Assembly (NCBI RefSeq): GCF_003416765.1 | Contig: NZ_QSNG01000001.1 | Span: forward strand, 522,742-586,741 | DNA: 64,000 bases | Source: Paratractidigestivibacter faecalis | GTDB taxonomy: Bacteria > Actinomycetota > Coriobacteriia > Coriobacteriales > Atopobiaceae | Direction of reading: 5' to 3' | Part shown: positions 8,277 to 37,018 of the stretch, one piece after another | Layout: each line of letters begins with the position of its first letter | How positions within the stretch are numbered: the stretch's first letter is position 1 | Position numbers and translations under genes: made by a program | Notes under the pieces: generated by a model | Told to the model about the DNA's origin: nothing | What the model saw: only the letters and a program-made list of their open reading frames with translations | Databases searched by the model: none

Positions 8277-8714
8277 ATGATCGAGCAGCTCACCGTCTGC
8301 CTTCCCGATGGCCCCGGCAAGCTTGCCGCCATGTGCGGCCTTCTGGGCCACAACGGCGTTCAGATCCACGCCCTCATGGTTGCCGAGACCGTTGACTTTG
8401 GCATCATCCGCGTCATCTGCGACAGGCCCCGCCACACGGCAGAGCTTCTCTGCGGTGCTGGCTACAACGCCATGTGCACGCGCGTGGTGGCAGTCGAGGT
8501 GCAAAACGTCCCTGGCGCCCTGGGCACCCTACTTGACCGCCTCTCCTCCTGCGACCTCAACGTGGAGTACGCCTACACCTGCTGCGTCGACTCCCGCACG
8601 GCGGACATCATCAAGGTCACCGGCGAGCCCCTTGAGATCAAGCTGCGCGAGAGCGGTCTGGCGCTGCTGACGGCCGCCGACCTCTACGACCCCGACGAGG
8701 TGGCACGTGCCTAA
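8277..8714 (+). CDS. Tandem ACT-domain protein
   Basis: Small 145-residue protein made of two ACT folds. The first (about residues 1-68) starts with QLTVCLPDGPGKLAAMCGLLGHNGVQI, the ligand-binding loop pattern of ACT domains, and the second (about 70-140) has VEVQNVPGALGTLLDRLSSCDLNVEY. ACT pairs bind amino acids and act as sensors; no catalytic domain is attached. RBS GAGGGGAG precedes the ATG at 8277. The gene overlaps by 8 bp with the following PP2C phosphatase gene, which hints that it may feed an amino-acid signal into that module. That link is inferred from position only. Confidence 0.8.
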   Translation: MIEQLTVCLPDGPGKLAAMCGLLGHNGVQIHALMVAETVDFGIIRVICDRPRHTAELLCGAGYNAMCTRVVAVEVQNVPGALGTLLDRLSSCDLNVEYAYTCCVDSRTADIIKVTGEPLEIKLRESGLALLTAADLYDPDEVARA

Positions 8715-10950
8715 GGCTCTGGGAAAGCGTCACGTGGAGGGCATCGGCGAGGGGAGCCTCTCGGGAACCCTCGCGCGCCTGCTGCAGCTCACCGGCGACG
8801 CCGTCGTGGCGTTCGACGGCGCCGGCAGGGTGCTTTTGGCAAACGACGAGGCGGCGTCCCTGTTCTTCTCGGCTTCGGAGGGCCTTGTGGGCTCTGACGT
8901 CCGCGGGCTCTTCCAGCTTGAGGCAGATGTTGCCGACGTGCCGTTCTGCGCCCAGGACCTGCCGTTTCCCGTGGACGGCTCCGGGGCCCTGGTGCTTTGC
9001 CGCACCGCTGGGGGGCACCTCTCGGCCGTGCGCGTCCGCTGCGACGCCGTCCATGCCCCGGGCGAGACCTACCTTCTGGTGGCGAGGCTTGCCGGCGACG
9101 CCGAGGCGGCCGCGCATGAGACCGAGCGGACCGTGGCGGAGCTCCGGCGCGCCAACAAGCGCCTGGCGGGCGCCATGAACATCGTGCTGGACACGCTGGA
9201 CTACGAGGACGTGGGCAGCCTCTTTGGCCGTGCTCTGGAGGAGATCTGCGAGACCATGGAGGCTGACGGCGTCCTGGCCTACATCGCCGACGTAGGCGGG
9301 TTCCACCTCCGCGGCGCCACCGAGGGCGTGGACGCCTCCCGCGCCCCGCGCTTCATGGAGTACGGCCGCGGTCTGGAGACCCTTGCCGCGCGCTCGGGAA
9401 TGGCCCAGCGCATCCGCGTCCTGCCGCCCGCGGGCGAGGCCCTGCGCCAGGGTCGCCTCTCCAACCGCGAGGTGATCAACGAGGAGACCCACGAGGTCCT
9501 CAAGATCTCCGCCCGACGCCTGCCGCCCTTCACCAGCTTCATCGTGGTGCCCGTCTGGTTTGACGGTCGCGCCATCGCCATGATCGAGGTCGGCTGGGAG
9601 CGCATGCACCCCCTGCGCGAGGACGACGCCAAGCTTCTGGACGCCGTGGCCCACTACCTCTCGGTGCAGCTTGTGGGCGCCCTCTCGGCCATGCGGGCGG
9701 AGCGGGCGCAGAGCTTTGACGCGCTGGGAACGGACCTGCGCGAGGAGCTCATGGGAGCCTCGGGCGAGAAGGACGTCGAGCAGCGCGTTCGTGACGTCCT
9801 GGCGGATGCCGCCGACGCCCTCGAGGCGGCCCTCGTGCCGTTGGGCGTCAACGAGCACCAGAGCGTCGTCGTGGCCGACCTACCGCTGTGCGGCCACCGC
9901 GCCATCCCGGTGGCCGAGACCCTCGGCGAGGACGTGGCCGCCCATGAGGAGGGCGCCTGCGTGACCGACGTCGGCCCGGAGAGCCCGCTCGCCCAGACCC
10001 TGCGCGACCTGGGGGAGCCCTGCGTGGGCGCCCTCGTGGACATGGGCTACCTGGCCGGGGAGAGGCGTGCCTTCCTGGTGCTGCGGCCCGACGGCGAGGA
10101 GCCCCTGGACGAGGTCGAGCACGGGTTTCTTCTCCGCCTCGCCCAGGACGTCTGCGACATCTACCGCGGCGAGGCCGAGCGCGCCCAGGACAAGCGCATA
10201 TCCCAGGCATTGCAGCGCGGCATGAGAAACGAGCTCCAGAAGGTGGAAGGACTCACGGCCCAGGGGCTCTACTCGTCCGCCACCGCGGCGGCCTTCGTGG
10301 GCGGAGACTTCTACGACCTCATCCGCCTGCCGGACCGGCGCGCCTGCGTGATCATGGGAGACGTCTCGGGCAAGGGCGTTGAGGCCGCCTCGGTCTCCGC
10401 CGCCGTCAAGACCGCCCTGGGCGCCTACGCCTGGGAGGGGCTGACCCCCGCGCGCATGGTGCGCTCGCTCAACGACTTCCTTCTGGGCTTTTCTCGGCTG
10501 GAGACCTTTGCCACGCTCTTTGTGGGCATCATCGACCTGGGGGCGGCCACCATTACGTACTGCTCGGCGGGTCACCCGCCCGCGCTGCTGGTGCGTGCCG
10601 GCGCGCAGGAGATTTCCATGCTGGATGTTCAGTCCGGTGTGGTGGGGGCCTTCGCGGACATCTCGTACCAGGACGGCGTGGTGAGCGTGGGGGAGAGCGA
10701 CGTCCTCATGCTCTACACCGATGGCACCACCGAGGCAAGAGACCCCGGCGGGGCCTTCTTTGGCGAGCAGGGCCTGCGAGACATGCTCATGCGCGAGTCC
10801 GCGCCCGACAAGCCCTTCGAGGGCTTTCTTGACCGCCTGCTGGCCACCCTGGACGCCTTCACGGGCCAGCGCCTGGACGACGACGTGGCCATGGTCGCCG
10901 TTCGCTTTGACGAGCTGGGAGGCCTCCCGCCAAAGATGAGCTACAAGTGA
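8707..10950 (+). CDS. PAS/GAF-domain PP2C-type serine phosphatase (RsbU/SpoIIE-like)
   Basis: Cytoplasmic sensor phosphatase of 747 residues. A PAS-like segment (about residues 15-140, AVVAFDGAGRVLLANDEAASLFF) is followed by a GAF-like domain (about 155-325) and a less clear sensory or linker region to about 500. A complete PPM/SpoIIE phosphatase domain spans about 515-735, with GGDFYDLI and MGDVSGKG metal-binding motifs, SAGHPPALL, LYTDGTTEARD and a terminal DDDVAMVAV. Such enzymes dephosphorylate STAS anti-sigma antagonists. The substrate here is most likely the STAS domain of the next gene, 46 bp downstream. The start is GTG 8707, overlapping the ACT gene. No transmembrane helix is evident, so the input should be cytoplasmic. 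Confidence 0.88.
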   Translation: MPKALGKRHVEGIGEGSLSGTLARLLQLTGDAVVAFDGAGRVLLANDEAASLFFSASEGLVGSDVRGLFQLEADVADVPFCAQDLPFPVDGSGALVLCRTAGGHLSAVRVRCDAVHAPGETYLLVARLAGDAEAAAHETERTVAELRRANKRLAGAMNIVLDTLDYEDVGSLFGRALEEICETMEADGVLAYIADVGGFHLRGATEGVDASRAPRFMEYGRGLETLAARSGMAQRIRVLPPAGEALRQGRLSNREVINEETHEVLKISARRLPPFTSFIVVPVWFDGRAIAMIEVGWERMHPLREDDAKLLDAVAHYLSVQLVGALSAMRAERAQSFDALGTDLREELMGASGEKDVEQRVRDVLADAADALEAALVPLGVNEHQSVVVADLPLCGHRAIPVAETLGEDVAAHEEGACVTDVGPESPLAQTLRDLGEPCVGALVDMGYLAGERRAFLVLRPDGEEPLDEVEHGFLLRLAQDVCDIYRGEAERAQDKRISQALQRGMRNELQKVEGLTAQGLYSSATAAAFVGGDFYDLIRLPDRRACVIMGDVSGKGVEAASVSAAVKTALGAYAWEGLTPARMVRSLNDFLLGFSRLETFATLFVGIIDLGAATITYCSAGHPPALLVRAGAQEISMLDVQSGVVGAFADISYQDGVVSVGESDVLMLYTDGTTEARDPGGAFFGEQGLRDMLMRESAPDKPFEGFLDRLLATLDAFTGQRLDDDVAMVAVRFDELGGLPPKMSYK

Positions 10951-10996
10951 CGCCGACGAGGGCATAGGACGGCGCGCGCAGGGGAATAAACCCCCT

Positions 10997-11746
10997 ATGA
11001 AAACAGAAGCCAACATAGCGACCATTTCCGTCCCGGGAGACCTCGACGTCCTGGCGGCGCCCGCCCTCAAGCGCTCCCTGGAGGGGCTCATCGACGGGGG
11101 CTGTCACCGTGTGGTGGTCAACATGGCCAATGCCGGCTACGTGGACTCTGCGGGTATGGGCACCATCATCTGCGAGCTCAAGCACATGCGCCAGGAGGGC
11201 GGGCTCATCTCGCTGGTCAACGTGGCGCCGCGCGTGTACCGCGCCCTCGCGCTCATGCGCGTGATGGACTTCATGCCCGTCTCTCGCGCAGGCGTGCGCC
11301 GCAGCGTGCGCGAACTCGACCCCTCGGTGCTTCCGGAGTGGAGGCGCACCTTCCGCGTGGCGGCAGGTCAGATGGCCCAGGTCCGCGGGCGGGTCGAGTG
11401 CCTCTGCGAGGGACTGCCGCTTAAGGCTGACGAGGTCTTTGACCTCACGCTCGCGGTGGGAGAGGCCCTGGGAAACGCCGTGGACCACGCCGGCGAGCGT
11501 GGGGTGCTGGTGACGGTTGCCGCCTATGCGGACCGCGTCGTCGTCGACGTCGCCGACTGCGGCCAGGGCTTCTCGCTTGGTCCGGACGAGGAACTGCCGG
11601 AGGCGGCCGCCGACGCCGAGCGCGGGCGCGGCATCAAGCTCATGCGCATGCTCACGGACTCGGCGAGCATCTCTCCCAAGAGCACGGGCGAGGGCTCGGT
11701 TACGCACCTGGTCAAGCTCTTCTCTAACAGCGTTGTTGCCCGTTGA
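10997..11746 (+). CDS. Fused STAS anti-sigma-antagonist / RsbW-type kinase
   Basis: 249-residue fusion. Residues 1-95 form a STAS domain (ISVPGDLDVLAAPAL...) with the phospho-acceptor motif DSAG (Asp50-Ser51) expected in RsbV/SpoIIAA proteins. Residues about 115-249 form a GHKL ATPase of the RsbW type, with N box EALGNAVDHAG, G1 box DCGQGF and G2 box GRGIKLMRM. In classical partner switching these are separate proteins that bind each other, and the kinase phosphorylates the STAS serine. Here both sit in one chain, next to the phosphatase that would reverse the reaction. No sigma factor gene is adjacent. Confidence 0.87.
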   Translation: MKTEANIATISVPGDLDVLAAPALKRSLEGLIDGGCHRVVVNMANAGYVDSAGMGTIICELKHMRQEGGLISLVNVAPRVYRALALMRVMDFMPVSRAGVRRSVRELDPSVLPEWRRTFRVAAGQMAQVRGRVECLCEGLPLKADEVFDLTLAVGEALGNAVDHAGERGVLVTVAAYADRVVVDVADCGQGFSLGPDEELPEAAADAERGRGIKLMRMLTDSASISPKSTGEGSVTHLVKLFSNSVVAR

Positions 11747-11849: not shown

Positions 11850-11925
11850 GCGGGCTTAGCGCAGTTGGTAGCGCGCCACCTTGCCAAGGTGGAGGTCGCG
11901 GGTTCGAACCCCGTAGCCCGCTCCA
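11850..11925 (+). tRNA. tRNA-Gly (anticodon GCC), copy 1
   Basis: Acceptor GCGGGCT/AGCCCGC, anticodon loop TTGCCAA between CCACC and GGTGG, T arm GCGGGTTCGAACCCCGT, encoded CCA. It is identical in sequence to the copy at 13773. Confidence 0.97.
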
Positions 11926-11935
11926 TGCGAGCACC

Positions 11936-11960
11936 AAGGCCGGTCTCGATCGGCCTTTTT
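11936..11960 (+). terminator. Hairpin between tRNA-Gly and tRNA-Cys
   Basis: AAGGCCG and CGGCCTT flank an 8-nt loop with T residues following. It lies only 7 bp before tRNA-Cys, so it may be a processing or leaky termination signal. Confidence 0.6.
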
Positions 11961-11966
11961 CATATC

Positions 11967-12040
11967 GGCGAAGTGGCCAAGTGGTAAGGCAGGGGCCTGC
12001 AAAGCCCTCACCCCCGGTTCGAATCCGGGCTTCGCCTCCA
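11967..12040 (+). tRNA. tRNA-Cys (anticodon GCA)
   Basis: Acceptor GGCGAAG/CTTCGCC, anticodon loop CTGCAAA with GCA, T arm CCCGGTTCGAATCCGGG, encoded CCA at 12038-12040. It has no separate promoter that I can see and is probably read from the tRNA-Gly promoter. Confidence 0.96.
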
Positions 12041-12050
12041 AGAGCGCACA

Positions 12051-12079
12051 GGGCGCCTGCATTCGCAGGCGCCCTTTTT
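12051..12079 (+). terminator. Terminator after tRNA-Cys
   Basis: GGGCGCCTGC (12051-12060) pairs perfectly with GCAGGCGCCC (12065-12074) across ATTC, then TTTTT. Confidence 0.93.
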
Positions 12080-12110
12080 GCGTTATAGGGGCTTGTTCCA
12101 CCTAATTAAT

Positions 12111-12236
12111 TGCTACGTTTGCGTTTTGTTGTGTACCCCATGAGTATCAAACACTCTCTTGCTCCGTTTGCCCAGTTGGCGGCGACGTATGGCGCGCTGA
12201 TACTTGGAAGGTCCGTTACAAAACGCAAACGTAGCA
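12111..12236 (+). repeat. Palindromic-ended element, copy A
   Basis: A 126-bp element whose ends are a perfect 19-bp inverted repeat (TGCTACGTTTGCGTTTTGT at 12111-12129 and its complement at 12218-12236). The centre holds the short hairpin word TTTGCCCAGTTGGC (12167-12180) and then GCTGATACTTGG. Related elements lie at 13545, 41786, 41953 and (partial) 62390. It contains no open frame and no transposase. It fills most of the 310-bp gap between tRNA-Cys and the next gene. Confidence 0.85.
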
Positions 12237-12350
12237 TCAGCGGAGCCCGCGGAAGCCCCAACTCGAGCGTTTCCGGTCGTTTTCCCACCGTTTGGCGGAC
12301 TTGCGGAGGCTCTGGGTTACCCGGATTCACGTACGTGCTAGCTTCTGAAA

Positions 12351-13520
12351 ATGGCTACCACAATTTGCGACATAACGGCATTTGACTATTGGCGCATCCC
12401 GCCGATAGTGCGTCTTCTTCTCGTAGGTGAGGAAGATGATGCTACCTTGCGCAAAATCGCAACGCCCGACCAGCTGAGGACGCTGAGGTCCGAGGTCGTC
12501 GAGACGCTTCCCCTGTGCAATTCTTTCCTGAGGCCCAGTCCTCGCACAAGGCACCTCGGCGCCTCTGCCAAGGAGCTGCTTCCCGTAGCTCCCATTCTTG
12601 CCGCGGGTCACGAGGGAGCGGTCGACGTCCTGACCGACCGCCATTCGGGCTGCCATTCCTCGACTCTCATTCGACCTCGCCTTTGGACTCGCAAGCTTCC
12701 GCTTGGCTCTACCGTGGAGATTTACGACGAAGTGTGCGTTACCTCCCCGGAGCTTGCGATGCTCCAGCTTGCCGCAAGGGCCAGCCTTCCCCTGACTATC
12801 ATGATGGCCTCCGAGCTCTGTGGCTCCTTCGCCGTCCATGAGCCTTCCCAACCCATCAAGGCGTTTCTTCAGAGAATCATCAAGGCAGACAAGAAGATTC
12901 CCACGGTCAATGGGTGGAAGCCCTTTGTGGACGCTAGCGGCAACCTCGGGAACCTATGGAGCCGCCCACCCCTGACGACTCCCCACAAACTTGCCGCCTT
13001 TGCCGCTGACTCAGGGGCAAAGAGGGGAGTCGTGCGCCTTGTCAAGGCGACCGAGCTCCTGGTTCCAAACGCTGCCTCACCCCTCGAGGTCCAGACGGCC
13101 ATGCTCCTTGGCCTTCCTAGTAGCATGGGCGGGTATGGCATTGGCGGCTTTGAGGCTAACAGGAAGGTCAGGCTCAACACCGGAGGAAGGTTGCTTTCTA
13201 AGAAGAGCGCCTGCTATTGCGATCTGTTCTGGGAAGAGGCGGGGATTGACGTTGAATGTCAGAGCACCATGGTTCATCAGAACGCCGACAGCTTCTTGTC
13301 TGACTCCGAGCGGACCACGGCGCTCAGGGGCATGGGCTTGGATGTGCTCCCCATTACGTTTGACCAGCTAAGCGACTCCGCCAGGTTCGACTCGTTTGTC
13401 AAAGTCCTTGTTGGCATGCTGGGACTGACCCTGGAGAGTCGGACGGAGGCCGTGAAGAAGGCGACCGTTGGGCTTCGGACTGAGGTTCTTGCGCCCTGGG
13501 AGACCATCCACCACGTTTGA
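12351..13520 (+). CDS. Hypothetical protein with Vsr/DUF559-like endonuclease-fold C-terminus
   Basis: 389-residue cytoplasmic protein without signal peptide or membrane segments. I do not recognise the N-terminal part (about residues 1-280), although its layout recalls AbiEi-type proteins. The C-terminus has the order CDLFWEEAGIDVECQ ... DSERTTALRGMGLDVLPITFDQL (about residues 287-345), which fits the D...ExQ...D..R...L..G pattern of Vsr/DUF559-type nuclease folds. The ATG at 12351 has no clear Shine-Dalgarno site and a TAGCTT box lies about 10 bp upstream, so a leaderless message is possible. The gene is bracketed by repeat elements A and B and then by identical tRNA-Gly genes, which suggests an inserted cassette. 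Confidence 0.6.
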   Translation: MATTICDITAFDYWRIPPIVRLLLVGEEDDATLRKIATPDQLRTLRSEVVETLPLCNSFLRPSPRTRHLGASAKELLPVAPILAAGHEGAVDVLTDRHSGCHSSTLIRPRLWTRKLPLGSTVEIYDEVCVTSPELAMLQLAARASLPLTIMMASELCGSFAVHEPSQPIKAFLQRIIKADKKIPTVNGWKPFVDASGNLGNLWSRPPLTTPHKLAAFAADSGAKRGVVRLVKATELLVPNAASPLEVQTAMLLGLPSSMGGYGIGGFEANRKVRLNTGGRLLSKKSACYCDLFWEEAGIDVECQSTMVHQNADSFLSDSERTTALRGMGLDVLPITFDQLSDSARFDSFVKVLVGMLGLTLESRTEAVKKATVGLRTEVLAPWETIHHV

Positions 13521-13544
13521 GTGGCCTTTGCGGCGTGCAAATTG

Positions 13545-13667
13545 CTACGTTTGCGTTTTTGCTCTGGGCTTGCCAAGAAGCAAGCAAAACTGCCGCGCAT
13601 TTGCCCAGTTGGCAGAAGGGGCCGAAGGGCTGATATTTAGGGCCCTTGTAACAAAACGCAAACGTAG
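13545..13667 (+). repeat. Palindromic-ended element, copy B
   Basis: A 123-bp element with 15-bp perfect terminal inverted repeats (CTACGTTTGCGTTTT and complement), the internal word TTGCCCAGTTGGC (13601-13613) and CTGATATTTAGG before the right arm. It starts 24 bp after the stop of the preceding gene, mirroring copy A on its other side. Confidence 0.83.
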
Positions 13668-13730
13668 TAGTCCGAGCCCTCAAATCTCTCGCGTAGACCC
13701 TCCGTTTTTCAAAAAAGTTGAGATTCCCAC

Positions 13731-13759
13731 TTGCGCGGGAGGCAAGATTCCCGTATTGT
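13731..13759 (+). promoter_or_regulatory. Promoter of second tRNA-Gly
   Basis: TTGCGC (13731-13736), a 17-bp spacer and TATTGT (13754-13759). Sequence similarity to the first tRNA-Gly copy extends into the promoter. Confidence 0.6.
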
Positions 13760-13772
13760 ATCTCCTTGCGTC

Positions 13773-13848
13773 GCGGGCTTAGCGCAGTTGGTAGCGCGCC
13801 ACCTTGCCAAGGTGGAGGTCGCGGGTTCGAACCCCGTAGCCCGCTCCA
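13773..13848 (+). tRNA. tRNA-Gly (anticodon GCC), copy 2
   Basis: Same 76-base sequence as the gene at 11850, including the encoded CCA. The two copies are direct repeats about 1.9 kb apart. Confidence 0.97.
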
Positions 13849-23342: not shown

Positions 23343-23903
23343 ATGGCTACATCAAAGGTTACATGGTACGTGGTACAGGTCCAGACGGGCCGGGAGCGCG
23401 CCATGTGCGAGCTCATAGAGCGCGTGGCGCCCAAGGGCCTGGTGGGGGAGTGCTTCACTCCCAGGTACCAGACGCAGAAGAAGTTCCAGGGAGAGTGGCT
23501 AGAGGTTGAGCAGCTGCTCCTTCCCGGATACGTGATCGTAGACACCGCCAAGCCGGAGCTCCTCATGCAGACGCTCCGTAAAATCCCGGACTTCACGCGC
23601 CTGCTGACCATGGGAGAGACCTTCGCACCCCTGGAAGAGCGCGACGTAGAGTGGATAGGAACCTTCACCCAGAAGGGCAGAAGGATCATCCCCATGTCCA
23701 TGGGAGTCATGGAGGGTGACCGCGTCGTGGTCACCGAGGGACCCCTCGTCGGGCGAGACGCGCTCATCAAGCGCGTCAACCGCCACAAAAGCCTTGCCAT
23801 CTTGGAGCTCCAGATATGTGGCAGAACGGTCACGATAAAGGTTGGTCTTGGAATTGTTGGAAAGTCAGAGCAACAAGACGGTGAGCGCAAAGACGTTTCC
23901 TGA
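23343..23903 (+). CDS. loaP: LoaP-like specialised NusG antiterminator
   Basis: 186-residue NusG paralogue. The NGN domain starts WYVVQVQTGRERAMCELIERV and contains LLPGYVIV. A KOW domain (about residues 115-150, GDRVVVTEGPLVGRDALIKRVNRHKSLA) follows. Domain order, length and position at the head of a long polysaccharide gene run match LoaP, which lets RNA polymerase read through terminators in biosynthetic operons. The ATG at 23343 is chosen because the family N-terminus starts there. The next gene overlaps its 3' end. Confidence 0.87.
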   Translation: MATSKVTWYVVQVQTGRERAMCELIERVAPKGLVGECFTPRYQTQKKFQGEWLEVEQLLLPGYVIVDTAKPELLMQTLRKIPDFTRLLTMGETFAPLEERDVEWIGTFTQKGRRIIPMSMGVMEGDRVVVTEGPLVGRDALIKRVNRHKSLAILELQICGRTVTIKVGLGIVGKSEQQDGERKDVS

Positions 23904-24573
23904 GCCTGGGACGCCAGAGTTTGCTGAGGCTAGCAAGTCTCTTGATACAAGGTCCCTTGGATACAAGGTCGTCAAGCGCTCGTTTGACATCGTCTTCAGT
24001 GGCTTTGCCGTTGCCGGTTTGCTGATTCCTTGTGCCATCCTTTCGGTCGCCATTGCGATTGATACCAAGGGCGCTCCTATGTATTCCCAGGTACGTGTGG
24101 GCAAGAACGGAAAGCCCTTCCGCATCTACAAGTTCCGTAGCATGGTTGCCGATGCTGACGATGTGGAGAAGTACCTGACGCCCGAGCAGCTCGTTGTCTG
24201 GAACCGCGAGCGCAAGGTTGATGACGATCCCCGCATCACCAAGGTCGGCAAGTTCATTCGCAAGACGAGCCTTGACGAGCTCCCGCAGTTCCTGAACGTC
24301 TTTGTCGGACAGCTCAGCGTCATCGGGCCCAGGGCCATTACGTTTGACGAGCTCAACAACTACACGCCCGAGGACTGCGCAAAGCTCTTGAGCGTGCCTC
24401 AGGGCATTACGGGTGCATGGCAAGCCGGTCCTCGCAATCAGGCTACCTTCGAAAACGGCGAGCGTCAGCGCATTGAGGTTAATTACGCAAGCACTGCTTG
24501 TCTTAAGTCCGACGTAGACGTGTTCTTCGGCACCTTTGGTGTGATGTTCGGCAAAAAGAAGACGGGGAAGTAG
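23842..24573 (+). CDS. Undecaprenyl-phosphate sugar-1-phosphate transferase (priming enzyme)
   Basis: Membrane enzyme (up to 243 residues) that starts the repeat unit on the lipid carrier. One hydrophobic hairpin (about 48-75) is followed by the catalytic domain with PMYSQVRVGKNGKPFRIYKFRSM, KTSLDELPQFLNV and GPRA motifs of the bacterial sugar transferase family. The start is uncertain: TTG codons at 23842, 23848 and 23854 or GTG 23881 are possible, all overlapping the loaP end. It belongs to the short one-hairpin type, without the four extra helices of WcaJ. Confidence 0.9.
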   Translation: MVLELLESQSNKTVSAKTFPEPGTPEFAEASKSLDTRSLGYKVVKRSFDIVFSGFAVAGLLIPCAILSVAIAIDTKGAPMYSQVRVGKNGKPFRIYKFRSMVADADDVEKYLTPEQLVVWNRERKVDDDPRITKVGKFIRKTSLDELPQFLNVFVGQLSVIGPRAITFDELNNYTPEDCAKLLSVPQGITGAWQAGPRNQATFENGERQRIEVNYASTACLKSDVDVFFGTFGVMFGKKKTGK

Positions 24574-24575
24574 TC

Positions 24576-25682
24576 ATGCCTGAACCGATTAGAGTGGCGC
24601 AAGTCGTTGGTAAGATGAATGGCGGCGGGGTTGAGACTGTGGTGATGAATTACTATCGCCACATTGATCGTTCCCGTGTGCAGTTTGATTTCCTCGTTGA
24701 TGCGGACTCGACTCTCGTGCCACGAGAGGAGATTGAGTCACTGGGAGGTCGTGTCTTTGAGATATCGCCGTACCAGCACGTCCTCAAATACCAACGTGGT
24801 CTTCAGCGTCTCTTCAAGCAGGAGGGTTGGAAGATTGTCCACAGTCATATAAACGCCCTTTCAGTGTTCCCGCTTCGTGCTGCAAAGAAGGCTGGCGTTC
24901 CTGTGCGTATCGCCCACAGCCACAGCACCTCAGGCAAGGGCGAGTACGTAAAAAATACTCTAAAAGCTATGCTCAAGACCCAGGCCAACCGCTATCCCAC
25001 GCATTGCTTTGCCTGCGGCAAACGTGCCGGCGAGTGGCTATTCGGTAAGGACACGAATTTCGATATCATCTACAATGCCATAGACTTGGACCGCTTCTCT
25101 TTCGATGCCGAGGCCCGCGCGCAGGTACGGGCTGACCTGGGCCTAGTCGACGATCAGTTTGCCATCGGTCACGTTGGTCGCTTCACGGCCCAGAAGAACC
25201 ATAGATTCCTAATCGATGTGTTCGAGCAGGTGGCCAAGTGCTGCGATGACGCAATTCTCCTGCTGGTTGGCACCGGCGAAGACGAAGACTCCATAAGGAT
25301 CAAAGTGACCGAACGTGGCCTTGCGGATCGCGTGAAGTTCTTGGGGCAAAGGGATGACGTTGACCGGCTGTACTCGGCCTTCGACGTGTTCGTGCTGCCG
25401 AGCCTTTACGAGGGACTCTGCGTCGTCGGCGTCGAGGCGCAGGCTGCTGGGCTGCCTTGTCTTTTCAGCGATGCGATTACCCGTGAGGTTGACATGTCGG
25501 GGAAGAACGAGTTTCTCACGATCGATGATTTCGCGCCTTGGGTTGATGGACTGTGCAATTTGTCTACCAATGGCTTGGTGTCGCGGGAGTTGACTATTCC
25601 CAGTCGGTTCGCTAACTATGACATCAATGCCCAAGCTCATTTACTGACCGAGAAATACGAAAAGCTATATAAGGACTGTTAG
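24576..25682 (+). CDS. Glycosyltransferase, GT4-type
   Basis: 368-residue GT-B glycosyltransferase. The N-terminal domain starts VAQVVGKMNGGGVETVVMNYYRHID, and the C-terminal nucleotide-sugar domain has the HVGRFTAQKNHRFLIDVF, LVGTGEDE and PSLYEGLCVVGVEAQAAG (EX7E) patterns. It resembles EpsF-like enzymes. From this gene on, AT content rises sharply compared with the upstream operon genes, which suggests that the variable half of the cluster was exchanged by recombination. Confidence 0.9.
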   Translation: MPEPIRVAQVVGKMNGGGVETVVMNYYRHIDRSRVQFDFLVDADSTLVPREEIESLGGRVFEISPYQHVLKYQRGLQRLFKQEGWKIVHSHINALSVFPLRAAKKAGVPVRIAHSHSTSGKGEYVKNTLKAMLKTQANRYPTHCFACGKRAGEWLFGKDTNFDIIYNAIDLDRFSFDAEARAQVRADLGLVDDQFAIGHVGRFTAQKNHRFLIDVFEQVAKCCDDAILLLVGTGEDEDSIRIKVTERGLADRVKFLGQRDDVDRLYSAFDVFVLPSLYEGLCVVGVEAQAAGLPCLFSDAITREVDMSGKNEFLTIDDFAPWVDGLCNLSTNGLVSRELTIPSRFANYDINAQAHLLTEKYEKLYKDC

Positions 25683-26687
25683 ATGGGGCCTAACGATCTC
25701 GTTTCGGTCATCGTGCCGGTATACAACGTAAAGCAATACCTTGAGGAGTGCTTTACCAGCATTTGCAATCAGACCTATCAACACCTGGAGATTATTCTCG
25801 TTGATGATGGATCGACAGACGGCTCAGGAGATTTGTGCGATGAGCTTGTAAAGAGGGATCTGAGATCAAGGGTGCTCCACAAGCCAAACGGTGGACTGTC
25901 TGATGCTAGAAATTACGGTCTTCGCTTTGCAAACGGCGACTGGGTCTCTTTTGTCGATAGTGATGATTTTATATCGCCCGTTTTCGTTGAGGTTCTTCTT
26001 AAAGCATGTCTTAAGACGGGTTGCCAGATATCTGCAGTTCCTTTTGGAAAACCCTTTGATGATGGTGATCAGTGCGCTCTTGTTAACTCAGCTGACTCTG
26101 TGGTGGCTGCAACAGCTCTGCTCTCATCAAATGTTCAAAACTTGATGCTATATCAGGCATTGGACACTGCCGCCCAATGGCGCCTCTACGCAAATGATTT
26201 ATTAGGCACTGATCCGTTTCCAAGGGGACTGTATTACGAGGATCTTGCCAGCATCTACAAAATTATTCACGGGGTTGATTCCGTTGCGATTGTCGACTGT
26301 CGTGACTTGTACGCATATCGCATGAGAAGCGATAGCATTATCAGACAAGAGTACAAACACATTAAAGGCGAGTCAGCGCTGAAAATTGCAGATCAACTTT
26401 ATCGTGATATTTGCAATTGGTATCCGAACCTAAGCAAAGCTGCTGCATCTCGCTGCTTTTCAGTATGCAGAATGGTGTTTGCACAGATTCCTATACTTGC
26501 GAACGATTTTCTTGTTCGTGGGGATTCAGATGAACTTTGGCATGTATTAAAAGAATATCGTCGGGTGGTTTTGTTCGATGGCAGAGCCAGAAAGCGCGAA
26601 CGTTTTGCTGCTGGAATTGCCCACCTTGGAAAGACTCCTTTCCGTATCTTCTGTTTGTTGTGCCGAGCTTTCGGATTGATGCGATGA
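25683..26687 (+). CDS. Glycosyltransferase, GT2-type
   Basis: 334-residue GT-A enzyme: SVIVPVYNVKQYLEECFTSI, LVDDGSTDGS, KPNGGLSDARNYGL and FVDSDDF (DxD-type) motifs lie in the first 110 residues. It starts at the ATG directly after the previous stop and overlaps the next gene by 4 bp. Sugar specificity cannot be read. Confidence 0.9.
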   Translation: MGPNDLVSVIVPVYNVKQYLEECFTSICNQTYQHLEIILVDDGSTDGSGDLCDELVKRDLRSRVLHKPNGGLSDARNYGLRFANGDWVSFVDSDDFISPVFVEVLLKACLKTGCQISAVPFGKPFDDGDQCALVNSADSVVAATALLSSNVQNLMLYQALDTAAQWRLYANDLLGTDPFPRGLYYEDLASIYKIIHGVDSVAIVDCRDLYAYRMRSDSIIRQEYKHIKGESALKIADQLYRDICNWYPNLSKAAASRCFSVCRMVFAQIPILANDFLVRGDSDELWHVLKEYRRVVLFDGRARKRERFAAGIAHLGKTPFRIFCLLCRAFGLMR

Positions 26688-27796
26688 TTTATATAGTTAT
26701 AATAGGGTTGCCGACTTTTCTTGCCCTTCTCTCCGACTATACAAGGGGCTTCTTGTCAAAACTCTTATTCTGCTGCGCAATGCTTGTTCCATGCTTCTTT
26801 GCAGGTGTTAGAGATTTATCTATCGGTACTGATGTGATGACATATGGTTACTGGACTTTCAACTTTGCAAAGTCGGCAAGCTTACTGTCTTTTTTAAATG
26901 CATATTCAAGTATTTCAGCTTTTGGATTTAACTTATTCAGCTGGTTAATTGCAAGGACTGGCTCGTTTGAGTTGTATCTAGCTTTAATACAAGGTCTCAC
27001 CGTATTGCCAATCTGTCTCTATGCAAAGAGACGATATCCGAGATCATCCTGGGTTGCAGTTGCAGCGTATATGCTCCTGCTATTCCCTGTGTCATTAAAT
27101 GCCATGAAGCAAATGATAGCAGTAGCGCTGTGCGTCCCCGCTTTTAAGTATTTTGATGAGAAGCAGCCCGTTGCTTTTTGTCTTACTGTTGCTGCTTCCG
27201 CGTTCTTGTTTCATCAAACAGCAGTTGTTGCGCTGTTATATTGGCCTGCATCCAAAGCGATTGAATCCATTGGCGAATCTAGAGCGTTTTTCGGCAGAGT
27301 TCAAAGCTTAGCGCTTATCATGATTGCCATTTTGATAGCTCTGTTTGTTTTCGTATTTGGTGAGCGCTTGATATCCGTGTTCTCCTTCTTAAAAGATTCC
27401 TACTCCTATCAATTGAATGCTTCTGGGACAAGACTTAATTACTCAGCAGTTGTGCTGTTACTTGGCTCAATGATAATATATCAAACTAATAAGCTTTCGT
27501 TAATTAATGAAGGAAAAGACAGGAGGGATGTGTGCGTCTTTGCCCTCTTCTCGATAATCGGCGCAGCCTTGATTCAGCTAAATCTAATTGCCAACAGCCT
27601 TATGAGATTTTCTTACTACGCCTTGTCGTTTTATCCATTGTTTGCATCGGGCCTAGCCAATAAGACTTCTCGAAAGAAATCGTACAGCACGGTATTTCTT
27701 CTACTGCTATTAATTGCCTATTTCGTTCAGACGACTGTAATTAATGGTGGTAATCAGGTATATCCATACACTTCAACGCTATTGGGAATTCGATAA
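26684..27796 (+). CDS. EpsG/Wzy-type polysaccharide polymerase
   Basis: 370-residue membrane protein with about ten helices. The early FFAGVRDLSIGTDVMTYGYWTF segment matches the RxxxxGxD motif of the EpsG/Wzy family, and a large loop and later helices contain LNAMKQMIAVAL. The start at ATG 26684 overlaps the GT2 stop (ATGA); an upstream in-frame extension is not hydrophobic and is rejected. It polymerises lipid-linked repeat units outside the membrane. Confidence 0.85.
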   Translation: MIYIVIIGLPTFLALLSDYTRGFLSKLLFCCAMLVPCFFAGVRDLSIGTDVMTYGYWTFNFAKSASLLSFLNAYSSISAFGFNLFSWLIARTGSFELYLALIQGLTVLPICLYAKRRYPRSSWVAVAAYMLLLFPVSLNAMKQMIAVALCVPAFKYFDEKQPVAFCLTVAASAFLFHQTAVVALLYWPASKAIESIGESRAFFGRVQSLALIMIAILIALFVFVFGERLISVFSFLKDSYSYQLNASGTRLNYSAVVLLLGSMIIYQTNKLSLINEGKDRRDVCVFALFSIIGAALIQLNLIANSLMRFSYYALSFYPLFASGLANKTSRKKSYSTVFLLLLLIAYFVQTTVINGGNQVYPYTSTLLGIR

Positions 27797-28785
27797 TGTT
27801 ATTTTCTGTAATTATTCCAGCCTATAATGCCGAAAAATATTTCTCAGAGTGTCTGTCTTCAATCAAAGAACAAACATTTAAAGATTTCGAAGTAGTGATA
27901 ATTGACGATGGATCTAGTGACTCAACTTCTGCAATGGCAGATAAGTTTGCTGACAGTCTAAGGTCGGTCAAGGTTATTCACACCTCGAATCAAGGTCTTC
28001 TTCTTGCAAGAAGAAGAGGACTTCTCAATGCGCAGGGCGAATATGTTGTCTTTGTTGACGCTGATGACTGTCTACGCAGTGATGCTCTCATGCTGCTATC
28101 TAAGACTATTCAGGAGACTAATGCAGATATCGTTTCCTTTCAGTACTCCCGTGACTCCTCATTTAAGACTATGTCCGGCCTCGGGCTTCCGGCTGGTCTA
28201 TACGAGAATGAGAAATATGAGTCTGTAAAGTCTTACGTCTGTAGGGGACGATTTAACAATCTATGTGGCAAAGCCATACGGCTTTGCCACATAGATTTAA
28301 ATACAACCTATGGGGCATATAGAGGATTGATGCATGGGGAAGACCTGTTTCAATTGCTTCCAATTGTTGACTCTTCTTCGTCGCTCATGCAACTCAACGA
28401 TGTTCTTTATTACTACCGACCTAACGACTCGTCAAGTACAGCTCGATATAAACCTAGCCAGCTTGAAGATATTATTCGCGTAAACCGTCGACTTATCGAT
28501 TATGGAAACAAGTGGGGCGGGCCCTGCTCTATAGAAGCATCGGTCGGAGAGGTAAATCAATACCTATATCTCCTGAAGCTAAGTGAGTTATCTGATTCGG
28601 ATGATTCGGAAAAGAGCACGAACTTTTCATCCATTTCTTCAGCGATGAAACGTGAAGGTGCATTCGATCGCGTGTATTTACGAAACTTAAGATTTGACAA
28701 CTTGATTCTCTGTGTTGCTCTTAAGTGCCGATTTAGAAAGCTTGCTGTGTTTCTAATTCTGTTGGTAGAGGCTCTGAAGAAGTGA
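27796..28785 (+). CDS. Glycosyltransferase, GT2-type
   Basis: 329-residue GT-A enzyme with FSVIIPAYNAEKYFSECLSSI, IIDDGSSDSTS, NQGLLLARRRGL and FVDADDCL. It overlaps the wzy stop by one base (TAATG). An unusual perfect inverted repeat with 15-bp arms (28261-28294) lies within codons for LCGKAIRLCHI without breaking the frame. The C-terminal 100 residues are poorly conserved in this family and give no clue to the acceptor. Confidence 0.9.
   Translation: MLFSVIIPAYNAEKYFSECLSSIKEQTFKDFEVVIIDDGSSDSTSAMADKFADSLRSVKVIHTSNQGLLLARRRGLLNAQGEYVVFVDADDCLRSDALMLLSKTIQETNADIVSFQYSRDSSFKTMSGLGLPAGLYENEKYESVKSYVCRGRFNNLCGKAIRLCHIDLNTTYGAYRGLMHGEDLFQLLPIVDSSSSLMQLNDVLYYYRPNDSSSTARYKPSQLEDIIRVNRRLIDYGNKWGGPCSIEASVGEVNQYLYLLKLSELSDSDDSEKSTNFSSISSAMKREGAFDRVYLRNLRFDNLILCVALKCRFRKLAVFLILLVEALKK
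28261..28294. repeat. Perfect intragenic inverted repeat
   Basis: CTATGTGGCAAAGCC, ATAC, then the exact complement. It lies inside the GT2 gene at 27796. It is too long for an ordinary coding coincidence and has no terminator T run. Confidence 0.9.
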
Positions 28786-28845
28786 CCTGCAATTTAGCTT
28801 CAAGTCATTTATTGCACTAAGTTTTAGGGTTCTGGAAGTGTCAGT

Positions 28846-30090
28846 ATGAAACATATTTCTTTTTATAAAAATTTATTTTGGCAGTACGGACTTCAGGGAC
28901 TGAGGTATATATTCCCGCTTCTGCTGGTTCCGTATCTTACACGAGTGCTCGGGACTGACTCTTATGCAGTTTATGCCTATGTACTTTCTTTTATGGGGAT
29001 TATTCAGACGATAGCGGACTTTGGTTTTACATTGTCTGGCACAAAAGGCGTTGTAAAGAAGAGGGATGATACGATCTCCGTGTCCCAGCTTGTCGGGGCA
29101 ATCACCTTTGCTCGTTTGTTGCTACTTGCATTTCTCGTAGCGGTTGTTTTAGTTGCTAGTTATTTCATCCCAATTATGAGTGAAAACTTAACCTATGTAA
29201 TGTTGGCATTTGTGGGGGTATCTTTAAGGGCATTGCTGCCTGATTTTGTATTTCAGGGCTACGAGCAGATGGGTCCTTTGACGACTCGCTATTTTGTCTC
29301 AAAAGGCCTTACTGTCGCGCTTAGTTTTCTATTCGTAAAAACACCGGAAGATTTGCTTCTTGTTGCTATTGCAGATATAGCAGGAGGCATAGTGGGGCTT
29401 ATCTGGAGCTTCCTGGCGATGCGAAGGTTATTCCGAGTATGGATCTCATTTCCTTCAATCCAAGCAACGTTATGCGAATTGCGAACTTCCGCAATTTATT
29501 GCATTTCAAACGTCAGCTCATCGCTGTTCTCCGGGTTTACAACGATAATTATTGGACTCGCAATTACTGATAAATCAAGTATTGCTTTTTGGTCGTTAAC
29601 TCTGACTACTGTTAATGCTGTTCAGGCACTGTATACGCCTATTACTAATAGTCTCTACCCTCATATGTTGAATAGCAGCGACTATTCTTTTGCAAAAAAA
29701 CTAGCGCTAATGGCGCTACCAGTCCTTTTGATTGGAACCCTAGCCTATTGCTATTTATCTAAGCCCATAATGCTTCTGCTTGGAGGAACAGAATACGTGG
29801 CCGGAGCACGTATTATGTGCCTAGTTTCTCCCGTTCTCCTGTTCTCCTTCTACTCTATGTTAATTGGATGGCCAGTTCTCGGAGCCATGGGATATGTTAA
29901 AGAGCTGACCACATCAACCGTTTTTACTGGCCTTATAAACATTGCTACCTTGATGTGTCTGTATCTATCTGATCGAGCAGATATCGAGGCTATTTGTTTT
30001 GTTCGTTGGGCAACAGATGCCCTTCTGCTTGCGTCTAGGTCTTACTACATACGGAAGATTCGCGCTTCACAAAATGGAATATCTCATTGA
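28846..30090 (+). CDS. Wzx-type polysaccharide flippase
   Basis: 414-residue membrane protein of the MATE/PST flippase superfamily with 12 predicted helices. The opening FWQYGLQGLRYIFPLLLVPYLTRVLGTDSYAVYAYV is the characteristic Wzx N-terminus. It moves lipid-linked repeat units across the membrane and works with the polymerase encoded two genes upstream. A 60-bp gap precedes it. The RBS is weak (GGAAG). Confidence 0.92.
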   Translation: MKHISFYKNLFWQYGLQGLRYIFPLLLVPYLTRVLGTDSYAVYAYVLSFMGIIQTIADFGFTLSGTKGVVKKRDDTISVSQLVGAITFARLLLLAFLVAVVLVASYFIPIMSENLTYVMLAFVGVSLRALLPDFVFQGYEQMGPLTTRYFVSKGLTVALSFLFVKTPEDLLLVAIADIAGGIVGLIWSFLAMRRLFRVWISFPSIQATLCELRTSAIYCISNVSSSLFSGFTTIIIGLAITDKSSIAFWSLTLTTVNAVQALYTPITNSLYPHMLNSSDYSFAKKLALMALPVLLIGTLAYCYLSKPIMLLLGGTEYVAGARIMCLVSPVLLFSFYSMLIGWPVLGAMGYVKELTTSTVFTGLINIATLMCLYLSDRADIEAICFVRWATDALLLASRSYYIRKIRASQNGISH

Positions 30091-30100
30091 TCTAAGGAGT

Positions 30101-30930
30101 ATGGGTGTGCGAGAACTATCAACCAGAGAAATACAACTAGAGCTGTTTTCTATGCTTCTCTCACTTTCCGAGGTGTTTGATGAGCATGGAATTCGCTATT
30201 CTCTTGACGGAGGAACACTGCTTGGAGCGGTAAGGCACAAAGGATTCATTCCGTGGGATGATGATATAGATATCCTTGTCCCCAGGCCTGATTTTGACTT
30301 GCTTCTGAACAATCCTGATTGGTGTCCTGATGGGATGATGCTTGAGGGCATGGGCATTAATGGAAACCCACTTCCCTTTCTTAAGCTAGCTAATCCTAAA
30401 TTCCGAGCACAAGAGGCAGCATATGAAGGGGCCTTTGAAGAGCATTTGTGGGTAGACATTTTCCCGGCAGACTCGATGCCTCAAGATCTCAATGAGAGGG
30501 CTGGGCTTATGCGTAAACAGCAAAAGCAACAGAAGGCAGCCGCTCGTTCGGTGATTAATATTGATGCTGCGATCTCAGCCTCCAGAGGAGTTATAAAAAA
30601 GAGCCTAAAAAAATTCTATCTTCCTATATATAAAGCTACTCACTCATCTTTGTATGAGTATCAAAAAATGACCGATACAGCGCGCGCGCGACACAATTTG
30701 GATCTACAGAAGAAATCGGTAATGTGGTGTGGGGACCTTATAAGCAAGATAAGCCTGGTTTCCCCCTTGAAGATTTTAACAATCTTGTTGAGCTTGAATT
30801 CGAGGGGCATGTCTTTAAAGCCTGTCGACACTGGGATGACTACCTTACTCGTCTATATGGCGACTACATGCAGCTTCCTCCTGTAGATCAAAGAGTGACT
30901 CATGGAATGAAAGTCTGGGCTTTAGACTAG
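30101..30930 (+). pseudogene. licD: LicD-family phosphotransferase, frameshifted at a CG repeat
   Basis: LicD enzymes transfer phosphocholine or phospho-polyols from CDP donors onto glycans. The first frame encodes the catalytic start IRYSLDGGTLLGAVRHKGFIPWDDDIDI (about residues 27-54). After the tract G(CG)5 at 30680-30690 the family sequence continues in another frame as FGSTEEIGNVVWGPY ... LEFEGHVF ... YLTRLYGDYMQLPP to a stop at 30930. Removing one CG unit joins the two frames exactly. Without it, translation runs on to 30886 with unrelated residues. ATG 30101 lies 1 nt from AAGGAG; GTG 30107 (7-nt spacing) or ATG 30074 are alternative starts. This could be a mutation, a sequencing error or a reversible switch. 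Confidence 0.85.
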
Positions 30931-30944
30931 GCAAGGGAGTAAAA

Positions 30945-31649
30945 ATGTCAAATTATGTGGTTCTAACTGCTGGTGGTATAGGTTCTCGTATGGCAAACGA
31001 AATCCCTAAGCAGTTTATTAATGTTAACGATAAGCCAGTCATTGTCTACACAATGGAGGCATTTCAGAGTCATCCGAGCATCGACGGAATTGTTGTTTCT
31101 TGCCTCAGCGGATGGGATTTAATTCTTCGGGCTTATGCAAAAGAGTTCGGTATTACCAAGCTGAAAGCCATTGTCCCCGGTGGGGAGACAGGGCAACAGT
31201 CAATTTTCAATGCGCTCACTAAATTGAAAGAGTTTGCTTTGGATGACGACATGGTAATTATCCATGATGGTAATCGTGCATACGTCTCCCCTGACATCAT
31301 CTCTAATGCCATTAGCGTTGCCGAATCGAAGGGAAATGCAATTGCATGCATCCCATGCGTTGAGGTAATTGCCAAGCGCGATGCGCCCGATGCACAGACT
31401 GCTCATGTCACGATTCCCCGGGATAGCCTCGAGCGTACGCAGACTCCACACGTTTTTAAGTTCGGAGACATCATGGAGCTACACAGTTGGGCTCGCGAGA
31501 ATGGGGTAGAGGCCGCCGCCGCTCCTGAGTTGCTCACATTGAGTGGTCGCGCAATTAATTTTTCGTTGGGTGATGAGACTAATTTCAAAATTACAACTCC
31601 AGGCGACCTTGAAATGTTTAAAGCGTTAATTAGCATGAGGGAGCGATAA
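30945..31649 (+). CDS. IspD/TarI-like cytidylyltransferase
   Basis: 234-residue nucleotidyltransferase. The N-terminus VVLTAGGIGSRMANEIPKQFINVNDKPVIVYT matches the CTP-binding loop of the IspD/TarI superfamily, and VIIHDGNRAYVS and the terminal DETNFKITTPGDLEMFKAL are also characteristic. Because it sits between licD and a dehydrogenase gene in a polysaccharide operon, a CDP-polyol role (TarI-like) is more likely than isoprenoid synthesis. The exact polyol is unknown. Confidence 0.87.
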   Translation: MSNYVVLTAGGIGSRMANEIPKQFINVNDKPVIVYTMEAFQSHPSIDGIVVSCLSGWDLILRAYAKEFGITKLKAIVPGGETGQQSIFNALTKLKEFALDDDMVIIHDGNRAYVSPDIISNAISVAESKGNAIACIPCVEVIAKRDAPDAQTAHVTIPRDSLERTQTPHVFKFGDIMELHSWARENGVEAAAAPELLTLSGRAINFSLGDETNFKITTPGDLEMFKALISMRER

Positions 31650-31651
31650 AG

Positions 31652-32713
31652 TTGAATGCGTATTGGAAGTATATAGAAGAGCTTTCGGAGAGTTTTGATT
31701 CGATTCTCATCGGCTCCTTAGAGGGTCAAAGGATTTTTATTACTGGAGCCTGTGGTCTGATTGGCTCATGTCTCTCCGAAGCGTTTCTTGCGTTGAATAG
31801 GAACTTTCAAACTAAATGTCAAATTTATCTTGGTGCTCGAGATGCAAATCGACTCCGACAGCGTTTTTCTGAGTTCGTTGGCGAGTTTACCCCCGTGGAA
31901 TACGATGCTCTGAAAGCCGATCTTCCTAAAGTAGATTTCGACTTCATCTTTCACTGTGCCTCTAATGCTCATCCAAAAGCCTACGCATCTCAGCCGGTTG
32001 AGACGGCTTTGACAAATACCTTAGGCACAAATAACCTGCTTGGTATGCTTCGCGCCTCCAGTGGTGGGCGCCTTGTTTATATTTCCAGTAGCGAGGTGTA
32101 TGGACAAAGAAAGAGTGCCGAGCCGTACGTTGAAGAGGATTCCTACCCCGTCGATTCGCTGAATCCCCGTTCCTGTTACCCCGCTTCAAAGAGGATGGCC
32201 GAAAATTTATGTGCGGCATATCTTGCCGAATATGGAGTTGATTCTGTCATTGTTAGACCGGGACATATTTACGGACCAACAATGTCTACTTCTGATTCCC
32301 GTGCTCACGCTCAGTTTGCTCGTAATGCGGCTGCTGGCGATAATATTGTTATGAAGAGTGATGGACGACAGTTCAGATCTTACTGTTATGTTGTTGACTG
32401 CGTCACTGCCATTGTTTCCGTTGCTCTGAATGGGCGCTCTGGCGAAGCCTACAATATTTCAAATCCTGATTCCGACTGCACCATAGCCGAGCTTGCGGAG
32501 GCATTTGCCAAGGCTGGTGGAACAAAACTCGTCAGGTCTGAGTCGAGCTCAGATGAGAAGCGTGGATATAACATGATGGATAATTCCGCTCTTGATTCTT
32601 CTAAACTTCAAGCCCTTGGTTGGTCGGGACGCTATTCGCTTGAAGAAGGTACCAGAAGAACGGTTGAATTGTTAAGGGCTGGTTGTTTTAGCGGGGGCGT
32701 ACTGGCAAACTGA
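31652..32713 (+). CDS. NAD-dependent epimerase/dehydratase-family protein (extended SDR)
   Basis: 353-residue Rossmann-fold enzyme. The NAD motif GACGLIG lies near residues 32-38, the catalytic SSSEVYG plus YPASKRMAE (YxxxK) around 146-185, and a DxCVTAIVSVAL-type substrate region follows. TTG 31652 is the start, 2 bp after the previous stop and downstream of GAGGGAG. Together with the cytidylyltransferase and LicD it probably makes and adds an unusual CDP-linked residue, comparable to the transferase/reductase pairs assigned to CDP-polyols in pneumococcal capsule loci. It is the last gene of the polysaccharide operon. Confidence 0.88.
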   Translation: MNAYWKYIEELSESFDSILIGSLEGQRIFITGACGLIGSCLSEAFLALNRNFQTKCQIYLGARDANRLRQRFSEFVGEFTPVEYDALKADLPKVDFDFIFHCASNAHPKAYASQPVETALTNTLGTNNLLGMLRASSGGRLVYISSSEVYGQRKSAEPYVEEDSYPVDSLNPRSCYPASKRMAENLCAAYLAEYGVDSVIVRPGHIYGPTMSTSDSRAHAQFARNAAAGDNIVMKSDGRQFRSYCYVVDCVTAIVSVALNGRSGEAYNISNPDSDCTIAELAEAFAKAGGTKLVRSESSSDEKRGYNMMDNSALDSSKLQALGWSGRYSLEEGTRRTVELLRAGCFSGGVLAN

Positions 32714-36079: not shown

Positions 36080-37018
36080 CTATGCGGATGCTAGAATCTG
36101 CTCCACCTGACGCTTTGAGTCGGCAAACAGGTTCCGCTCAATCATTTGCGCGGCATTGATTCTTCCCAGGCAACTGACGATTTTGCTGAGGTCGCCACTG
36201 CTAATCTGAGTGAGATCGCTGACCGTGGCTTCCCTTAGGGCGTTTGGTGCCTTCGGCTCTCCGCTTGGCGTAAGCGCGACGCCTGTGATTATCTTTGAGG
36301 TGCTCGCATCTAGGTACACTGTCTTCTCGGCCTTGATGCAATGTCCGTACTGCCTTGCGATGTGGCTGATAGAGCGTTCGAGGTTGCTTGGATTTGAAAT
36401 GCCGCTTCTGGAGGAGAAAGTGAGGTCGTCGACGTATAAGGAGAATTTGCATTTGTAAAGGTCTGCGACGGCCTTGATTTCATCAAACATCTCCCTATAG
36501 GCAAGAAATGCGACGATTTGGGCCGAAGGGGAACCGGTCGGAATGATGGTCGAGCCATCCTGGAGCGTGTAGGTTGTCAGGTCGCATAGAGCTTCGGCGA
36601 TGTCCGGTGAGCACTTCATGGTGTTCTTGAAGAACCGATATACGTGCTCTCTGTCGCAGTGGTCATAAAAGGAGGAGAGGTCTGACTTCACCAGGTAACG
36701 AGCTCCTTCGTGATAACGTGCGTTATCAACATAGCAGACTCCCTTTCTGGCAAAGAAAGCCCATGGAGGCATTTCAATTCTTGACAGCAGATTACCAATC
36801 CTGTGCTGGACCCTCTTGAGCGATGGATTGGGGTTGTAAATAGTGCGGAATGTTCCGTCTGCCTTTGGAGTCTGCGAAATTCTGTAGCTAGCGTTTCGCA
36901 AAGTCCTCTTCAGCTCCTGGGGATTAGTGCAGAGCACCTCTGCAAGCTTTCTTTTGCTCCTGAGCTTGTAGAAGCGACTTTGGTCAATCGGATGAGTCAA
37001 CTTGGCTTCCAATTGCAT
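36080..37018 (-). CDS. Retron-type reverse transcriptase
   Basis: 312-residue RNA-directed DNA polymerase. The motifs run in order: TFRTIYNPNPSLKRVQHRI (RT1, about 57-74), NARYH (99-103, the NAxxH region X of retron enzymes), KSDLSSFYD with catalytic D113, IPTGSPSAQIVAF (RT4, 159-171), YVDDLTF with catalytic YVDD at 195-198, and KIITG (region Y, the VTG equivalent, 242-246). Length and motifs match retron RTs; there is no maturase, integrase or HNH domain, so it is not a group II intron. It overlaps the XRE gene by 35 bp and has no obvious ribosome site, so coupling is likely. Inferred role: phage defence. Confidence 0.88.
   Translation of the reverse strand: MQLEAKLTHPIDQSRFYKLRSKRKLAEVLCTNPQELKRTLRNASYRISQTPKADGTFRTIYNPNPSLKRVQHRIGNLLSRIEMPPWAFFARKGVCYVDNARYHEGARYLVKSDLSSFYDHCDREHVYRFFKNTMKCSPDIAEALCDLTTYTLQDGSTIIPTGSPSAQIVAFLAYREMFDEIKAVADLYKCKFSLYVDDLTFSSRSGISNPSNLERSISHIARQYGHCIKAEKTVYLDASTSKIITGVALTPSGEPKAPNALREATVSDLTQISSGDLSKIVSCLGRINAAQMIERNLFADSKRQVEQILASA

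Follow-up and report, generated by a model that had tools for sequence, protein, structure and literature searches.

A fusion of an anti-sigma antagonist and its kinase, in which the STAS domain comes first, is encoded widely and in conserved form in the class Coriobacteriia, in genomes that also encode a kinase-less anti-sigma factor, and this combination is new. In our reading, which has about an even chance of being correct and is based on sequence, the fusion protein (hereafter FUS) would unite in one chain a sigma antagonist and its own dedicated inactivating serine kinase, with the sigma factor (SIG) held by a separate RsbW-like protein (RsbW-d). More tentatively, the antagonist may be permanently tied to its kinase throughout this ancient class, with the anti-sigma factor lacking kinase activity, so that the balance between tethered phosphorylation and a single sensor phosphatase would alone set the switch.

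The fusion protein and the adjacent phosphatase

FUS is encoded by an uninterrupted frame from ATG to TGA in the window (the whole 64-kb stretch of DNA analyzed), with AGGGGA at 10980-10985 ahead of the ATG. The features of the locus are as follows.

8707..10950, + strand: PP2C phosphatase, 747 aa, putative GTG start, with likely PAS (residues 22-69), GAF (168-320) and PP2C/SpoIIE (542-734) domains
10997..11746, + strand: FUS, STAS-HATPase fusion protein, 249 aa; open reading frame with Pfam STAS and HATPase_c_2 domains and full-length homologues in relatives
11003..11284, + strand: STAS (anti-sigma antagonist) domain, FUS residues 3-96 (PF01740, 5.8e-14; TIGR00377, 57 bits)
11147..11149, + strand: codon of Ser51, the predicted phospho-acceptor, in DSAG
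11285..11335, + strand: linker, residues 97-113; 17 residues long in 92 of the 104 distinct sequences and between 15 and 22 in the others
11360..11713, + strand: RsbW-type kinase (HATPase_c_2) domain, residues 122-239 (PF13581, 1e-18)
11462-11476, 11555-11569 and 11624-11632, + strand: kinase motifs, which we take to be the N-box, G1 and G2, respectively

Both domains score above their Pfam cut-offs, and the motif residues are all in place (E156 and N160 in the N-box, D187, G189 and G191 in G1, G210-R211-G212 in G2), in agreement with the initial annotation of a STAS domain with its serine and a complete RsbW-type ATPase in a single 249-residue chain. The STAS half exceeds the cut-off of the antagonist profile TIGR00377 (53.45 bits) and lies below that of the SpoIIAA equivalog TIGR02886 (45 bits vs 114.75). 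The scores of the ATPase half are also under the equivalog cut-offs (TIGR01924, 27.1 vs 155; NF003144, 29.6 vs 145; TIGR01925, 27.6 vs 135), and hence we consider it a relative of RsbW and SpoIIAB, rather than RsbW or SpoIIAB proper. The kinase domain has the SpoIIAB/RsbW fold, and the model of the whole FUS chain has pLDDT 88 and pTM 0.76.

Homologues spanning both domains are present in 27 of 40 relatives, and the FUS profile matches 200 of 296 sampled Coriobacteriia genomes at E<=1e-15; with such recurrence the fusion is neither a chance event nor a frameshift. Five of the 200 matches are weak, 1e-17 to 1e-19 (G053, G119, G137, G178, and G180), and these genomes may lack full fusions. The named carriers among the best 80 of 195 loci include Olsenella, Thermophilibacter, Tractidigestivibacter, Parafannyhessea, and Atopobium. 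Conservation was analyzed in 116 FUS loci, which yield 104 distinct proteins. Of these, 103 carry Ser at position 51 and one carries Thr, and E156, N160, D187, G189, G191, G210, R211, and G212 are invariant in all 104.

Outside the class, the situation differs. In a set of 396 genomes of the phylum, the FUS profile has matches at E<=1e-25 in 40, of which 26 belong to Coriobacteriia and 14 lie outside the class. The latter resembled fusions with stop codons, and were rejected as such, the STAS domain and the kinase being encoded by separate neighboring genes in 14 of 14 loci. Therefore the fusion looks like a trait of Coriobacteriia, in as far as phylum matches at this threshold reflect it, weaker or rarer fusions being possible elsewhere.

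The phosphatase gene ends 46 nt upstream of FUS. Its product matches the SpoIIE-type PP2C (1.3e-45) and GAF_2 (3e-9) domains, and the PAS match (E 0.0015) scores 18.9 bits vs the Pfam cut-off of 22.6; thus, of the PAS/GAF PP2C architecture assigned initially, the PP2C and GAF parts stand, and PAS is likely but not firm. A PP2C homologue is found beside FUS in 114 of the 116 loci (97 on the same strand within 250 nt, 12 further away on the same strand, and five on the opposite strand), and two loci have none. In its own genome, the window phosphatase (1.1e-46) is accompanied by a single weak PF07228 match, which by Pfam is PP2C and not SpoIIE. Beside FUS, no partner gene other than the phosphatase was found; the ACT-domain gene at 8277-8714, considered as a part of the system, has a homologue in just four fetched FUS loci, the one from the window included, and so does not belong to the core. 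Scanning of the 64-kb window with the profiles of SIG, RsbW-d, and the single STAS protein STAS1 matched no other gene, and the earlier statement that no sigma gene is nearby holds.

Sigma factor, kinase-less RsbW-like protein and STAS1 elsewhere in the genome

Three candidate partners of FUS are encoded at other loci of the same genome.

L047:4696-5565, - strand: SIG, SigB/F/G-type sigma factor (TIGR02980)
L047:5558-5932, - strand: RsbW-d, RsbW-like protein encoded just upstream of SIG, the two genes overlapping
L048:4811-5122, - strand: STAS1, single STAS protein (PF01740)

SIG is 0.63 Mb away from FUS. Two Sigma70_r2 matches are present in this genome, RpoD (typed by length and rank) and SIG, the latter being the only alternative sigma factor of the sigma-70 family matched; it scores 293 bits with the SigB/SigF/SigG model TIGR02980, vs the cut-off of 234. 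RsbW-d precedes SIG on the same strand in all 28 relatives, and the genes overlap in 23 of these. While its HATPase_c_2 score of 17.2 is below the Pfam cut-off of 27.4, sequence comparison points to RsbW and the anti-SigF factor UsfX, and the predicted fold (pLDDT 91) matches RsbW (6m36, E 4e-10) and mycobacterial UsfX (8ih8). None of the 39 RsbW-d copies has the catalytic Asn: 31 have Y in its place, three have F, two L, two C, and one W. DxGxG is present in only one copy (G016).

We considered a kinase-dead anti-sigma factor as a novelty of the class and rejected this, as the same motif loss is seen in the phylum: among 25 loci resembling RsbW-d, of which 23 have a SIG-like neighbor, none has DxGxG, and Asn is at the expected place in none of the 24 N-boxes that could be read (the segments were read by eye, that of G504 being unreadable). 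With the same state phylum-wide, the kinase-less anti-sigma factor is, judged by its motifs, old and not peculiar to Coriobacteriia.

Six PF13581 matches were identified in the genome, FUS among them. Four others reside in ORFs that also contain HisKA or HisKA_3 and HATPase_c and hence are histidine kinases, and FUS is the only RsbW-type kinase among the matches listed. PF01740 matches only FUS and STAS1. The STAS1 gene adjoins tatA-tatC in 25 of 26 loci (in this genome, both TatA and TatC are confirmed by Pfam). STAS1 is matched at E<=1e-33 in 11 of 11 tested genomes from families with FUS and at 1e-19 to 1e-23 in six of six from other orders; in 18 tested genomes of FUS-less families, the best match is no better than 2e-14.

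FUS and SIG are both present in 195 of the 296 class genomes, with FUS only in five (G159, G095, G151, G155, and G178), SIG only in one (G307), and neither in 95, the presence lists being compared by eye; when the five weak FUS matches are left out, the respective counts become 191, 4, 5, and 96. However, correction for descent leaves two to three independent contrasts (sign test p 1), and thus we do not accept the co-occurrence as statistical proof of a link: it amounts to nearly one shared loss and carries no independent statistical weight. A tree holding the FUS-less families as one clade is not rejected (p-AU 0.24), which does not amount to showing such a clade. Moreover, FUS can be retained without SIG, since G159 (locus L171) has FUS, the PP2C phosphatase, and STAS1, while its one sigma match is RpoD-like and searches for SIG and RsbW-d found neither. 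A SigB/SigF-like promoter consensus upstream of FUS (27 sequences), RsbW-d (28), STAS1 (26), and the PP2C gene (28) is no more common than in shuffled sequence.

A cluster of six genes on one strand is observed in a distant genome, G659 (L160:1240-3980), in the order kinase-dead RsbW, SigB/F/G-type sigma factor, STAS, second RsbW-like protein, STAS, full kinase. Both RsbW-like proteins lack DxGxG, so that the cluster contains one complete kinase. In the trees, the first RsbW-like protein falls with RsbW-d (100/97), and the full kinase, together with G433, falls with the FUS kinases (99/96). The STAS protein, on a very long branch, is placed apart from the STAS domains of FUS, and the cluster comes from this single, incomplete (71%) genome. 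We infer the sigma link of FUS from this cluster and from the parallel with M. smegmatis, in which kinase and anti-sigma factor are different proteins.

A possible switch and its alternatives

The sequences themselves establish the fusion with its conserved serine and kinase motifs, the loss of the catalytic Asn from RsbW-d, the pairing of the RsbW-d gene with SIG and of the PP2C gene with FUS, and the cluster in a distant genome. In the switch that we propose, the FUS kinase with ATP would phosphorylate Ser51, either in the same chain or in the partner chain of a dimer, turning the STAS domain off; once its sensor part is activated, the GAF-PP2C phosphatase would remove this phosphate; and the unphosphorylated STAS domain would bind RsbW-d, freeing SIG. 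The sigma factor would thus be held by RsbW-d and not by the fused kinase, with STAS1 possibly serving as a second substrate. As SIG has its own RsbW-like protein, encoded upstream and devoid of kinase motifs, a role of the ATPase in FUS as a dedicated kinase is more probable than one as anti-sigma factor, and, with RsbW-d holding the sigma factor, fusing the antagonist to the kinase would cost no competition for it. Hence the frame in which FUS was initially placed, standard partner switching in which the two must compete for a sigma factor, is not supported for this protein. The intramolecular phosphorylation envisaged then is plausible, but phosphorylation could equally occur between chains of a dimer, or on the separate STAS1.

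The main rival is that STAS1 is the true target. FUS would then act mainly in trans, its kinase phosphorylating STAS1 as the real antagonist of RsbW-d, and the fused STAS domain would be a regulatory or docking part set by the phosphatase. STAS1 does have DSTG in 26 of 26 copies, scores higher than FUS with TIGR00377 (83 vs 57 bits), and is strongly matched in the FUS-bearing families and not in the FUS-less ones; on the other hand, Ser51 of FUS is conserved to the same degree as its kinase motifs, and it is FUS that the phosphatase gene adjoins, whereas STAS1 is a neighbor of tatA-tatC. On balance we regard this reading as possible, though rather doubtful. An output other than a sigma factor, with FUS and the phosphatase steering another partner via the STAS domain as in SiaABCD-like sets, is unlikely. 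It would explain the retention of FUS, PP2C, and STAS1 in G159 without SIG and RsbW-d and the absence from the window of any sigma gene close to FUS, and has a precedent in SiaABCD, a set of STAS, kinase, and phosphatase with a non-sigma output (PMC9239204); but in the G659 cluster a FUS-like kinase is encoded together with relatives of SIG and RsbW-d, and the search for another partner gene beside FUS gave none.

Slightly less probable still is the supposition of the initial annotation that FUS is itself the anti-sigma factor, its kinase domain binding SIG and the tethered STAS domain competing in cis. Apart from the SpoIIAB/RsbW fold of the kinase domain, this would agree with the invariance of Arg130 in all 104 distinct sequences, a residue presumably close to the place of a sigma-touching residue of SpoIIAB. 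It must be weighed against the gene-coupled RsbW-d of SIG. The mycobacterial data in PMC7693655 point both ways, with Rv1364c cited there as binding SigF in vitro and the kinase paralogue of M. smegmatis described as having no direct anti-SigF role. Finally, it is highly improbable that the separate domains, produced by an internal start, proteolysis, or a frameshift, are the true products. The ATG at 11369-11371 (Met125) within the kinase domain might serve as an internal start, but the product would lose the first predicted strand of this domain (residues 115-121), and the open fusion frame and the linker length are conserved in the 104 distinct sequences, which favors the single fused product assumed at the outset.

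If the proposed switch with a dedicated fused kinase is true, it would be the general wiring of the apparently sole alternative sigma factor in Olsenella-, Atopobium-, and Collinsella-like bacteria of the gut, mouth, and vagina. It would also be a compact natural test of an antagonist and a kinase unable to separate. In the more tentative class-wide reading, the kinase would never be sequestered by sigma, and the antagonist-to-kinase ratio would always be 1:1, unlike in the classical switch.

Relation to known systems and other features of the window

Each half of FUS and each division of labor has a precedent in RsbV/RsbW, the split SigF switch, or Rv1364c (PMC7693655, PMC12143880, PMC9138534). 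The two halves match RsbV-RsbW and SpoIIAA-SpoIIAB in sequence and fold, but in Bacillus these are separate proteins, and RsbW and SpoIIAB are described as kinase and anti-sigma factor at once (PMC7693655). In M. smegmatis, the experiments reported in PMC7693655 and PMC10950880 assign the anti-sigma function without kinase activity to RsbW1, phosphorylation of RsfB at Ser63 to RsbW2, and the PP2C function to RsfR. This SigF switch resembles the one considered here in that a kinase-less anti-sigma factor is encoded beside a SigB/F/G-type sigma factor, a feature present here with the kinase loss deduced from sequence, and in that a separate kinase and the STAS protein that it phosphorylates are encoded together, close to PP2C, an arrangement seen here in fused form in the 114 loci mentioned above. 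The differences are that the mycobacterial STAS protein and kinase are not one chain, and that the phosphatase has a receiver domain, rather than GAF (and likely PAS).

Rv1364c of M. tuberculosis, with the order PAS-PP2C-kinase-STAS, is reported both to add phosphate to its own STAS domain and to remove it (cited in PMC7693655 and PMC9138534). As in FUS, the kinase and STAS share a chain, and the FUS profile matches the Rv1364c structure 3ke6 at 5.8e-4. However, STAS is last there and first in FUS, and PP2C belongs to the chain there and is a separate gene here, so that the single-chain PP2C-kinase-STAS order of Rv1364c is not that of FUS. Moreover, Rv1364c is described as limited to pathogenic mycobacteria (PMC9138534), whereas FUS spans a class. 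A STAS-first kinase fusion was not found in the literature search, and the open-access literature, which lacks most subscription papers, yielded nothing relevant on Rsb proteins of Coriobacteriia or on partner switching in this class.

Several other features of the window were noted. Downstream of FUS, at 11850-13848, tRNA-Gly(gcc) is duplicated within a 97-nt repeat (97% identity). Between the copies lie tRNA-Cys and an ORF of 389 aa without a Pfam match (12351-13520). This ORF is flanked by a short repeat whose inverted arms are CTACGTTTGCGTTTT and which is found at 12111-12236, 13543-13668, and 41786-41906, with one arm also at 62455-62469 (one mismatch). The three copies in the window are not expected by chance, and among 369 fetched loci the repeat is seen in L001 of the same genome alone; it resembles a small mobile element or a REP-like one. 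Genes for surface polysaccharide (sugar transferase, flippase, epimerase) occupy about 23800-32700, where the G+C content drops to 42-45% (26-32 kb) vs about 65% around. A reverse transcriptase of 312 aa (RVT_1, retron-like or group II-like) is encoded at 36080-37018 on the - strand, and a RhuM-family protein with a Fic domain, at 43256-44233 on the + strand.
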